From Ignavibacteriales bacterium (GTDB lineage: Bacteria; Bacteroidota; Ignavibacteria; Ignavibacteriales; Melioribacteraceae), in assembly GCA_026390795.1 (NCBI GenBank), contig JAPLFG010000004.1:62001-126000 (forward strand): a stretch of DNA of 64,000 nt. The letters run 5' to 3'. The position numbers and the translations under genes are program-made. Under the pieces are notes generated by a model, which did not search any database, had not been told where the DNA came from, and saw only the letters and a list, made by a program, of their open reading frames with translations. Shown one piece after another: positions 15,146 through 55,939 of the stretch; within the stretch, counting starts at the first letter, position 1; every line of letters starts with the position of its first letter.

Positions 15146-15306
15146 AATTAATTCCAGCAAATTTGTGGAATTAAAGTAACATTTAGTTAACTGTAACTAT
15201 TTGAATTAAAATTAAACAATCTGATTTCGTATATTTGTTCCAACAACTATGGGTTAGAATAGTTGTGCTGAAAATAGTCACGTATTCACTAGATAGACGA
15301 TTTATG

Positions 15307-15488
15307 TCATTCTTTTCTGAGTGCGGTTCGTAATTGGACTTGCTCATATTGGACACTCCATTTACTCTCTCCAAATGAATCGAAACGACTGAGTAACACA
15401 TCCAAAAAATCACCACAATGTCTATTTTTTTTGCGATATTGAAAATCTTTTCCTCACAAAATGGATACGGTTTGAATTGTTGAGCCAT
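15307..15488 (-). pseudogene. Decayed zinc-ribbon protein gene (frameshift in a run of eight A)
   Basis: The frame starts MAQQFKPYPFCEEKIFNIAKK, the usual opening of zinc-ribbon proteins (CPFC-x-E-x-I-x3-A-x-KC-R-x-CG), with the first cysteine changed to Tyr. After the eight-A run the expected second knuckle continues in another frame as RHCGDFLDVLLSRFDSFG and ends at TGA 15309-15307. The original frame instead runs on as an unrelated sequence to 15183. Both a lost cysteine and a frameshift point to decay rather than a sequencing slip alone. Confidence 0.65.
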
Positions 15489-40984: not shown

Positions 40985-41305
40985 TCAGTTTTTATTGTTT
41001 TGCGTTAATATTAGATTATTCTTAGTACTTTTTACAATTGCAGTTAGCATTTTTATTAATGCATTAATATCAATCAAATATTTTTCGTAATCATATTTCA
41101 CAAATTGACTTTTATGTAATAGTTTCAACCAATAATCATTCTCTCTTGCTTCCTTTGCAGCTATAGACATTTTATTCAAAAAATCTTTTTTTGAAGCCGC
41201 CGCCTGAGCTTCATTAACATTTACTCCGATACTCGTAGCAGTTTTTAATAACTGTTTAGATATAATAAATTCTGAATTTCTTATTAGTTCTTTATACAAT
41301 TCCAT
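40985..41305 (-). CDS. Four-helix bundle protein (rRNA intervening-sequence type), start uncertain
   Basis: The ATG at 41305 gives 106 residues with the four-helix bundle pattern (ISKQLLKTATSIGVNVNEAQ, KKDFLNKMSIAAKEARENDY). The frame stays open upstream as IIEDGKGRVTEKGFNFALEI, which is the normal N-terminal helix of this family, back to ATA-ATC at 41365-41360, behind a strong GGGAGG. So either translation starts at a rare AUA/AUC codon or an ATG has been lost and the ATG at 41305 gives a truncated protein. The function of this family is unknown. Confidence 0.72.
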   Translation of the reverse strand: MELYKELIRNSEFIISKQLLKTATSIGVNVNEAQAAASKKDFLNKMSIAAKEARENDYWLKLLHKSQFVKYDYEKYLIDINALIKMLTAIVKSTKNNLILTQNNKN

Positions 41306-41434
41306 TATTTCTAAGGCAAAATTAAAACCCTTCTCAGTTACTCTACCTTTCCCATCTTCGATTATTTTGCCTCCCGCTAAAAACAGATAACCATAATCTT
41401 ATCTATGATCTCTAACAACTAAAAACTGCTCTCA

Positions 41435-53269: not shown

Positions 53270-54139
53270 TTATTTGTCCTGAAGTAAATTAGAAAGTTTG
53301 GACGAAGATATAAAACTTCCAATAAATCCTAATGAGACTCCGATCACAGGAATCAGAATATCAAGGAAGTCCAAATACATTATAAATTTAATGTTATAAT
53401 AGATTTTAGTCAATAAAATCAATATACCATGAAAAAGAAATAAAGTGAATAATGATGAGATTAGTCCGATGAACAGACCGTTAATTATCAACGGTATTTT
53501 CATGGTTTTTTCTAAGGCACCAACCAACTTCATAGTTACATAGAGATTCCGGTTCCCGTACATCTGAATTTTATTGTTACTATAAACAAGATAAATTGAT
53601 AAAAGTATTAAAATCACAGATAATATATAAATAATGTACTTGAAAGATTTAAGAAAATTAAGAATCCGCAGAACAGTTTTATAATCATAAACCACATCGG
53701 ACACACCCTTTAATTTCTTAAATTGGTCTGTGAACTTTTCAATGTTCATTTCATCTAGAGACTCTGGTTGAAACTTTACAACTAAAGAGTTCGGCAAAGG
53801 GTTCTGATCAATTACTTTTCTAAAATCTTCTCCTGTTTCCGCCAAAAATTTTTTTACTGCATCATTCTTACTGATAAACAGCACCGATTGAACTTCATGG
53901 ATTTGTGTTATACTTGATCGAATGTTTTCAATATCCGATGAGTTAAGCGAATCTTCCAAATAAACATTGACTTCAATTGACCGCTTGACTTGGTTGCTAA
54001 GCGTATTCGTACTGAATACAAGGAAAAAAGATACCGTCGTTAATGAAACCGCAATCGTTGTAATAGTAATTGTAACAATTGTGGCGAAGGATGATTTCCG
54101 GAATATTCTTAAAGTTTCTTTTAGATAAAATAGTATCAT
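53270..54139 (-). CDS. ftsX: FtsX-like permease of the FtsEX complex
   Basis: This 289-residue protein has four membrane helices in the FtsX layout (one N-terminal, large external domain, three C-terminal) and NLYVTMKLVGALEKTMKIPL, the FtsX C-terminal motif. It transmits FtsE ATPase signals to periplasmic cell-wall hydrolases at division. It begins six bases after a lipoprotein gene. FtsE is not next to it. Confidence 0.85.
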   Translation of the reverse strand: MILFYLKETLRIFRKSSFATIVTITITTIAVSLTTVSFFLVFSTNTLSNQVKRSIEVNVYLEDSLNSSDIENIRSSITQIHEVQSVLFISKNDAVKKFLAETGEDFRKVIDQNPLPNSLVVKFQPESLDEMNIEKFTDQFKKLKGVSDVVYDYKTVLRILNFLKSFKYIIYILSVILILLSIYLVYSNNKIQMYGNRNLYVTMKLVGALEKTMKIPLIINGLFIGLISSLFTLFLFHGILILLTKIYYNIKFIMYLDFLDILIPVIGVSLGFIGSFISSSKLSNLLQDK

Positions 54140-54145
54140 GAATTC

Positions 54146-54640
54146 CTAAAAATTAGATTCATCAACCCAGCGAAGGATTTTCCATTTATTATTTATTTTG
54201 ATGAGCGTTAGATTCACTCTACCGTCAATATAAATAATATCAGTCGGGTTAAATGTTATTGTTAAATTAAAACTTCTGACAATGCGTGATGAATCATCCG
54301 TCATGGAATTTATATTATTCCATACCAGATCCAAGCGCTGCGTGTTTTGGAACAATCCGCTGCTAACTTTCATTTCTTCATCTCTCCCCCATGAAATATC
54401 AGCTCCAATATCATAATCTCTGTAATTAAAAGTAAAATTTTTATTCAGAAGCTGACTATAAATTAGTGTATCCTTAAAAGCATACGCATATTGGAAATTT
54501 TGGAAGACTCCATCCACATTTAGTTGATCACTAATTAATCCTTTTGCTTCTCCAAGTGTGTCGTCAATCTTTGGTGCAAAAGGATTTACACAACTATTAA
54601 GAGTAAATAAGACTATTCCGCTAAAAAGAATTAGCTTAAT
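54146..54640 (-). CDS. Lipoprotein of unknown function, apparent AUU start
   Basis: The usual start codons give only 123 residues from GTG 54517, without a signal peptide. The frame stays open upstream for 41 codons encoding a clear lipoprotein signal (KLILFSGIVLFTLNSC, lipobox LNSC) up to ATT at 54640. GGGAGG lies four bases before that ATT, and the ATT overlaps the preceding gene's stop (ATTAA). No ATG, GTG or TTG exists in this stretch, so AUU initiation of a 164-residue lipoprotein is the best reading. The mature part ends LTLIKINNKWKILRWVDE, like scaffolds with a nuclear-transport-factor-2-type fold. Confidence 0.7.
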   Translation of the reverse strand: MKLILFSGIVLFTLNSCVNPFAPKIDDTLGEAKGLISDQLNVDGVFQNFQYAYAFKDTLIYSQLLNKNFTFNYRDYDIGADISWGRDEEMKVSSGLFQNTQRLDLVWNNINSMTDDSSRIVRSFNLTITFNPTDIIYIDGRVNLTLIKINNKWKILRWVDESNF

Positions 54641-55208
54641 ATAGCCTCCCTTTTAATTCGCTCCAACTTTGAAAATTACTTTTTTTAAAATCATCCATTT
54701 CAACAATCATCCATTGGTTTCTCGAATCTAGCGATATCTTAAACTGCATTGTTCCTTGAAATTCACCGCTGATTGTCTGGTCGTTTGCGGAAAGATTCAA
54801 ATTGTAATCGAATTGATAGACTGCGCTGTCGCCAAACTGTGTGTTGAATTGATTTGATAAATCGAGTGTGATGGAATTCCCTTGTTTGGCGATTGTCTTT
54901 TGATTTTTGAAGTACTGCCGCTCAGATTCTAAATTCCAGTTAGTTAATACCGGAAATTGAGATGTTGAACCCGATGAAGGTATATACCTGAATTTTTTTT
55001 TGGAGTAAGAAGAATCAACAAAACATTGCATGTAATTTTCTAAAACTTTCTCTTCAATAGAAGATTTTAAGTTCTGAAACAATATGTCCGGTGTAGTTGC
55101 CGGAATATTACTATTCGCAATCGTATCCGGAAGTTCGGCATTTCTGGTAGTCAACAAATCGCAAGAAGTTAAAATCAAAAGAAACAAAAAATAGATATTT
55201 TTTTTCAT
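54636..55208 (-). CDS. Lipoprotein of unknown function
   Basis: This 190-residue protein starts with a lipoprotein signal (KNIYFLFLLILTSC, lipobox LTSC). The mature part is mixed alpha/beta and ends with QWMIVEMDDFKKSNFQSW, similar in layout to the next lipoprotein (a short C-terminal strand pair with conserved W). The two may be paralogues. It overlaps the methyltransferase stop by four bases and ends at the start of the AUU lipoprotein. Confidence 0.75.
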   Translation of the reverse strand: MKKNIYFLFLLILTSCDLLTTRNAELPDTIANSNIPATTPDILFQNLKSSIEEKVLENYMQCFVDSSYSKKKFRYIPSSGSTSQFPVLTNWNLESERQYFKNQKTIAKQGNSITLDLSNQFNTQFGDSAVYQFDYNLNLSANDQTISGEFQGTMQFKISLDSRNQWMIVEMDDFKKSNFQSWSELKGRLY

Positions 55209-55939
55209 CGCTTAAAAAAAAGAATTAATCTATGAGATGTATTTTCATTGAATTCCGAACCATTATAATCACCAAAGAATTTCTCAATTGTAAATCCAAT
55301 TTTCTCAAACTCAGAGATTATCTTTTCCTTGGAATATAGTTGGACGGATTCCAGATAAGTATCTTTTGTTGTTCCATTTTGAATTAGAATTTCTTTTACT
55401 ACCCGTCCATTCTCAATTCTTCGCAGTTCTACAACTCTTTTATTCCCAGTTTCGTTAATTGTTTCCGGTACCAGGTTCTTTATAACATAATCCGAATTCA
55501 AATAATCTAGAACATAATAGCTTTTTTCATTTAGCAAATTATATGCTGTTTTTGCAAAACGAAAGTTTTCATCATCGCTAGTAAAGTAACCAAAACTTGT
55601 GAATAAATTTAGGATCAGATCAAATTTTTTCTGCAAACATATTTTTCTAATGTCCGCGCAAAATAAATCAACTTCAATTTTTTGCAGTGCAGAATCTGAT
55701 TTAGCTTTTTTAAGAAGAGATTTACTTAAATCGAATCCCGTAACAGCAAATCCTCTTAATGCAAGGTTTATTGAATGTCTTCCGGCTCCGCATGCCGCAT
55801 CAAGAATTGAAGCATTTTTGTTTAAACGTGTTACTTTGATAATTAATTCTAATAACTTTTGTGCGTCATCGGTATCTCGATGTTGATAAACATCCAGATA
55901 TTCTTCGGAACTGAACCAATCCTTAAACCATTCTTTCAT
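55205..55939 (-). CDS. Class I SAM-dependent methyltransferase
   Basis: This 244-residue enzyme has motif I ILDAACGAGRHS (45-56), an acidic GFDLSK motif II region and DLILNLFTSFGYF. It transfers methyl groups from SAM to an unknown acceptor. It overlaps recR upstream and the lipoprotein downstream by four bases each, so it belongs to a tight operon, but the operon does not reveal a substrate. Confidence 0.82.
   Translation of the reverse strand: MKEWFKDWFSSEEYLDVYQHRDTDDAQKLLELIIKVTRLNKNASILDAACGAGRHSINLALRGFAVTGFDLSKSLLKKAKSDSALQKIEVDLFCADIRKICLQKKFDLILNLFTSFGYFTSDDENFRFAKTAYNLLNEKSYYVLDYLNSDYVIKNLVPETINETGNKRVVELRRIENGRVVKEILIQNGTTKDTYLESVQLYSKEKIISEFEKIGFTIEKFFGDYNGSEFNENTSHRLILFFKR

Follow-up and report, generated by a model that had tools for sequence, protein, structure and literature searches.

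A lipoprotein gene whose frame opens at ATT

Where does translation begin in a gene whose export signal precedes every standard start codon of its reading frame? The question is raised by P0001, a gene on the minus strand of the window, by which we mean the whole 64,000-nucleotide stretch of DNA that was analysed. A preliminary description had placed the lipoprotein signal of this gene upstream of the first standard start, and this holds, since that start, GTG at 54517, comes after the lipobox Cys and the conserved NPFAP motif. The same description had the frame opening at ATT and overlapping the previous stop as ATTAA, which is exactly what the sequence reads, and an ATG at 54640, named there as a finding that would overturn the claim, is absent, ATT being read at that place. 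The GGGAGG said to lie directly before ATT is present but not adjacent, standing 4 nt away. The features of the locus are as follows.

53270..54139, minus strand: ftsX, the next gene, with an ATG start 6 nt past the P0001 stop (Pfam FtsX_ECD 6.2e-19, FtsX 4e-8)
54146..54640, minus strand: P0001, lipoprotein gene, 164 codons plus stop when counted from ATT (homologues in 91 of the 96 related genomes)
54515..54517, minus strand: GTG, first standard start of the P0001 frame, lying within the conserved domain (Shine-Dalgarno weak, -2.3)
54590..54592, minus strand: codon of the lipobox Cys, residue 17, ahead of the conserved NPFAP (25-row alignment)
54593..54640, minus strand: lipoprotein signal peptide of P0001 (residue composition across 63 ATT-overlap loci)
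54638..54640, minus strand: ATT, the putative start codon, its third base also opening the upstream stop (sequence)
54645..54650, minus strand: GGGAGG Shine-Dalgarno with a 4-nt spacer, within the KGR codons of P0002 (duplex -11.5 kcal/mol)
54653..54655, minus strand: in-frame TAA that bars any earlier start of P0001 (sequence)
54636..55208, minus strand: P0002, upstream lipoprotein gene with an ATG start and a TAA stop at 54636-54638 (related to P0001)
55205..55939, minus strand: methyltransferase-domain gene with an ATGA overlap with P0002 (sequence and Pfam)

On the minus strand the junction of the two lipoprotein genes reads ...AAA GGG AGG CTA TAT TAA G..., with CTAT as the spacer between GGGAGG and ATT. 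The ATT of P0001 (54640-54638) and the TAA of P0002 (54638-54636) have one base in common, and P0001 opens as ATT AAG CTA ATT CTT in the +1 frame relative to P0002. No ATG, GTG or TTG is found in the P0001 frame between the TAA at 54655-54653 and the GTG at 54517. Read from ATT, the N-terminus is IKLILFSGIVLFTLNSC followed by VNPFAP, a lipoprotein signal with its Cys at codon 17 (54592-54590), and residues C17, N19, P20, F21 and P23 are invariant in the 25-row alignment of P0001.

The P0001 protein matched SnoaL_3 (PF13474) at 21 bits, below the curated cut-off of 22, and its structural model is NTF2-like (pLDDT 81), with best structure matches at E ~1e-6 that include 2rgq, 3hx8 and 4q53. The P0002 model is likewise NTF2-like (pLDDT 88), and a profile comparison of P0002 with P0001 in hhalign gave a probability of 97.2 and an E-value of 3e-11; the two are probably tandem paralogues. 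The ftsX product scored 4e-42 against NCBIfam FtsX_Gneg, under the cut-off of that model, and from gene position we would hazard a guess at an envelope role near FtsX.

The start codon across the order

Homologues of P0001 occur in 91 of 96 related genomes, for which the order was inferred to be Ignavibacteriales. Loci were obtained from 90 of the 91 (genome G065 is missing), and one of them (L115) is cut by a contig end, leaving 89 readable loci. The preliminary description had proposed comparing the start codon in relatives, and this comparison bore out the ATT: it shares its third base with the P0002 stop in 63 of the 89 readable loci, from 42 of 56 genera and all three families, with the proviso that in 12 of the 63 the open frame also offers a standard codon further upstream as a possible start. 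Counting positions at least 11 codons ahead of the Cys, the open frame of 52 of the 89 loci contains no ATG, GTG or TTG.

Over all 89 loci the start was labelled AUU, AUC or AUA (AUH) in 72, UUG in 8 (as TTGA), AUG in 5 and unclear in 4. Nine of the 72 AUH labels were assigned by eye, outside the strict ATT-overlap rule, and four of these nine (L108, L149, L158 and L164) are ambiguous, with an upstream standard codon at which translation could start. Upstream standard codons are thus present in 16 of the 72 AUH loci, and AUH is the first possible start in 56 of the 89. Relatives with another start and no signal had been named as evidence against the claim; other starts do occur (ATG in 5/89, TTG in 8/89), but the signal is kept. 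At the five AUG loci (L106, L110, L111, L118 and L153) the two genes share no bases. At the eight others (L028, L030, L113, L120, L121, L131, L161 and L162) a TTG in another frame overlaps TGA as TTGA, and five of the eight carry TATTGA, one substitution away from TATTAA. UUG and AUG are scattered among the AUH rows of the protein tree, which is unrooted and has 12 of 85 branches well supported (starred), and the three states require at least 9 changes.

Neighbouring genes in the same loci start conventionally, as read by a script that prefers ATG near the expected place and hence favours ATG: the ftsX starts are ATG in 88 and GTG in 1 of 89, and those of P0002 are ATG in 78, TTG in 4, GTG in 2 and none in 1 (n=85). 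The residues encoded behind ATT have the composition of a signal peptide throughout the 63 ATT-overlap loci, with K or R among residues 2-6 in 61, D and E absent in 61, the last 12 signal residues hydrophobic or small in all 63 and a mean of 16 codons from ATT to the Cys.

We give next to no credence to a start at GTG 54517 or to ATT being a sequencing error for ATG. The GTG is indeed the first standard start in frame, but it follows the lipobox and NPFAP and has a Shine-Dalgarno of -2.3, while an error is contradicted by the recurrence of the same ATT in assemblies of other species; we rejected both on the strength of conservation. As judged from the aligned loci, translation of P0001 very probably starts at AUU, and this start is conserved across an order and not an error.

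The junction could also be read as a site where P0002 is fused to P0001. In the release-factor gene prfB, a Shine-Dalgarno-like element lies ahead of a programmed +1 frameshift. With GGGAGG placed three bases ahead of TAT TAA, the junction looks like this arrangement, and the two genes stand in a +1 relation in 72 of 85 loci. A frameshift of this type at TAT TAA is nevertheless highly improbable: the frame relation is inconstant (72, 10 and 3 of the 85 loci), separate ATG or TTG starts are present in 13 of 89 loci, immediately behind the junction lies a hydrophobic lipobox signal, which is intelligible only as the beginning of a protein, and the Tyr tRNA should re-pair poorly with AUU. The inconstant frame and the signal peptide led us to reject it.

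Contrast with homologues outside the order

The set from outside the order comprised all 34 homologues found in other orders of the class and 6 of 39 from elsewhere in the phylum. A standard start at least 11 codons before the Cys is available in every one of them (34/34 and 6/6, respectively). Of the 34 other-order loci, 26 have a P0002 homologue upstream, and 10 show the pair overlapping with a standard start (8 ATGA or GTGA, 2 TGATG); closeness of the two genes is therefore not confined to the order with AUU. One of the 26 outside-order loci with a P0002 homologue, L248, also has an ATT overlapping the stop of the upstream gene, but 39-40 codons ahead of the Cys and with standard codons nearer to the Cys than the ATT, so such an overlap can arise by chance.

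The last codon of P0002 differs in parallel. Within the order, 65 of 85 loci encode a C-terminal Tyr (63 TAT, 2 TAC), versus 0 of 26 other-order homologues, and the TATT junction is therefore a feature of the order; genes ending in TAT make up 2.1% of the genome sample. The Tyr is kept though its distance to the KGR motif varies, and the TATT context of the start codon may be what drives this end of P0002 (54636-54641). A U precedes the ATT at position -1 in 57 of the 63 ATT loci, which may be a mere reflection of the Tyr codon ending P0002. Another reading would be that the U at -1 extends the pairing of the start codon with the initiator tRNA; nothing relevant to this idea turned up in the literature, among the matches listed.

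Conservation of the AUU can partly reflect the constraint of the overlap, because an ATG at that base would destroy the P0002 stop. At slightly under even odds, in our estimate, the AUU is a real start devoid of regulatory meaning, a frozen by-product of the one-base overlap that is tolerated since re-initiating ribosomes need little help; this would be compatible with the core reading of an AUU start. The third-base T is forced by the P0002 stop, the five AUG loci are those in which the genes share no bases, and other orders with similarly close genes use ATGA or GTGA, all of which speaks for it. Three loci that lack a standard alternative count against it: at L006 the codon is ATA, in a place where an ATG would still yield a TGA stop, and at L157 and L159 it is ATT with the stop downstream and hence unforced. 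This unforced AUH evidence is thin, amounting to 3 loci, with L108, L149, L158 and L164 being ambiguous on account of their upstream standard codon.

Shine-Dalgarno pairing and possible selection on the DNA

The 16S tail of the genome is the usual GGATCACCTCCTTT. Its pairing ahead of P0001 was estimated to -11.5 kcal/mol, and only 1.5% of 338 genome genes have a stronger one. The 51 ATT loci lacking a standard codon upstream averaged -8.9 kcal/mol and the 12 ATT loci with one -5.3 kcal/mol. The mean was -5.8 kcal/mol for the 8 UUG loci and -5.6 for the 5 AUG loci, for which the P0002 stop and not the ATG served as reference point, one of these stops being doubtful. The 338 genome genes averaged -4.8 kcal/mol, with starts that had been picked with a pairing bonus. 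Pairing is at -7 or below in 36 of the 51 ATT loci and weaker than -7 in 15. A rank test of Shine-Dalgarno strength in 51 versus 34 loci yielded p 1e-7 with kinship ignored; a pairwise test of strength against AUU on well-supported branches had only 3 usable pairs to draw on.

The codons of P0002 beneath the Shine-Dalgarno are rare ones: GGG accounts for 29 of 48 Gly codons and AGG for 24 of 33 Arg codons, compared with 9.2% of Gly and 7.7% of Arg in the genome sample. Folding of the start region gave no sign of regulatory RNA structure (window fold z = -0.11). A Shine-Dalgarno this strong is an argument for P0001 output being maintained, a point against the AUU being a frozen by-product of the overlap.

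Other candidates in the genome

We scanned for coding signal upstream of the first standard start. P0001 ranked first among 341 genes in 464 kb and again in a widened scan of 977 genes in 1.27 Mb (45 codons, score 23.95). Second in the widened scan was infC (23.92), whose locus L194 had been added deliberately as a positive control, and next came C3:69264 (21.8) and a four-helix-bundle gene of the window (17.7). A genome-wide habit of AUU starts was not seen in the 977-gene scan, where only 7 genes combined AUH, a Shine-Dalgarno of -8 or below and an extension score of at least 4. Three of the seven have a standard start within two codons after the AUH; the remaining four are P0001, infC, a P-loop NTPase gene and the four-helix-bundle gene.

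The four-helix-bundle gene (TIGR02436; window 40985-41398, minus strand) has GGGAGG followed by ATA ATC, and its first standard start is ATG 41305. Its close relatives L301, L302 and L303 carry ATG at that place, so that on this comparison it is probably a private loss of ATG, unlike P0001. The P-loop NTPase or kinase-like gene (L273:3835-4431, minus strand, equal to G000:C3 343835-344431) has ATC/ATT behind GGGAGG (-11.5), comes after a 352-codon open frame at L273 and is nearly absent from relatives, with 3 weak matches among 56 other genomes. The high-ranking extensions at C3:69264, C3:66646 and C3:677528 (minus strand), and also at C3:331964, have no strong Shine-Dalgarno at an AUH codon. 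For those of G000:C3 near 69264, 66646 and 677528 (minus strand), a pseudogene, a frameshift or a start of another kind may be the explanation.

The infC gene of the same genome (L194; G000:C4 near 15245-15448) has ATT behind GCGAGG. We read the infC starts of the lineage by eye in the 27 loci displayable of 30 given, and 26 of the 27 have ATC (20) or ATT (6) at the expected place. The infC at L175 reads TTG ATA. The preliminary description had noted that AUU starts often serve self-regulation, which is true of infC, whose product is IF3, but finds no support in P0001: its product is a SnoaL_3/NTF2-like lipoprotein, not an initiation factor.

Proposed coupled re-initiation at AUU

According to excerpts of PMC6728339, ATGA and TGATG pairs with a Shine-Dalgarno inside the upstream gene are established cases of termination-reinitiation. 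By the criterion of an overlapping stop and start with an upstream Shine-Dalgarno, P0002 and P0001 form such a pair, if AUU is accepted as a start. Ribosomes ending P0002 at the overlapping stop would be held by GGGAGG and would re-initiate two bases back on the AUU, with initiator tRNA. P0001 would then be supplied by the ribosomes that had made P0002, in a fraction of its amount, and the weakness of the AUU would fix a yield of the second lipoprotein that is low and coupled to the first. An AUU with a strong Shine-Dalgarno in S. aureus gives ~10% of the AUG output in poor medium, in the excerpted text of PMC13009471.

The whole reading, an AUU start with low, coupled re-initiation after P0002, has in our estimate a probability of about three in four; the start comes from sequence comparison, and we infer the coupling and the low output from PMC6728339, PMC5472188, PMC2268962 and PMC13009471. 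Taken separately, it is likely that re-initiating ribosomes use the AUU of P0001. That the weakness of the AUU start has been selected for is a proposition to which we would grant not quite an even chance.

A further explanation is that the AUU places the lipoprotein under IF3, as in infC or sigR, and makes its abundance depend on growth state. IF3 represses starts other than ATG, GTG and TTG, and the GTC of sigR fixes a protein ratio (both from the portion of PMC5472188 available); an excess of IF3 lowers re-initiation lacking a Shine-Dalgarno (PMC2268962, in extract); and the infC of the lineage itself reads ATT or ATC. We consider control of this kind unlikely, as there is no reason yet for the lipoprotein to follow IF3 and the Shine-Dalgarno of P0001 is strong, a case for which the effect is not described in the extract of PMC2268962.

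More tentatively than coupled re-initiation itself, we suggest that ATTAR might be a dedicated stop-and-restart signal order-wide, in which a strong, close Shine-Dalgarno holds the ribosomes and the two lipoproteins are made in a fixed, unequal ratio, although we would sooner bet against this. If true, ATTAR would stand as a separate coupling signal beside ATGA and TGATG.

Relation to known systems

Conserved non-standard starts with strong Shine-Dalgarnos are already known from infC, sigR, cvfC1 and ccpN. Like the AUU or AUC of infC, which is ATT in the same genome, the start of P0001 is a lineage-conserved, non-standard AUH with a Shine-Dalgarno; unlike infC, P0001 encodes a lipoprotein and not IF3, has no self-feedback, and its start overlaps the upstream stop. 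The cvfC1 (AUU) and ccpN (AUA) genes of S. aureus are similar in having conserved non-standard starts with extended, start-proximal Shine-Dalgarnos, but they are other genes from another phylum, and no stop overlap is mentioned in the excerpts of PMC13009471. In Streptomyces sigR a rare GTC start sets the ratio of two products, SigR and RsrA; this start differs in codon and in belonging to a sigma factor, again with no stop overlap mentioned in the available portion of PMC5472188. The AUU start of Borrelia bbe22/pncA was missed by annotation and its N-terminus is needed, but this is an enzyme from one organism, for which the abstract of PMC13398362 describes neither an overlap nor conservation of the start.

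The closest likeness in layout is to the ATGA and TGATG termination-reinitiation pairs, which have the stop/start overlap and a Shine-Dalgarno inside the upstream gene (excerpts of PMC6728339 and PMC12548453), whereas P0001 starts with AUU, as ATTAR. Neither "AUU" nor "ATT" occurs in the text of PMC6728339, and "AUU" is absent from PMC12548453. We found no description of the ATTAR form of stop overlap, its order-wide breadth or the lipoprotein pair in the open-licence literature, among the matches listed, and the P0001 start is absent from the titles and abstract openings of open-licence literature on start codons in Ignavibacteria, among the matches listed.

The AUU start of P0001 is a real feature and possibly a useful one, an AUU that overlaps a stop and is held in one gene across 42 genera. 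It offers a natural test in many species of the choice of start by re-initiating ribosomes and of compensation by the Shine-Dalgarno. Gene callers that accept only ATG, GTG and TTG would miss the signal peptide and thereby misplace P0001, an envelope lipoprotein.
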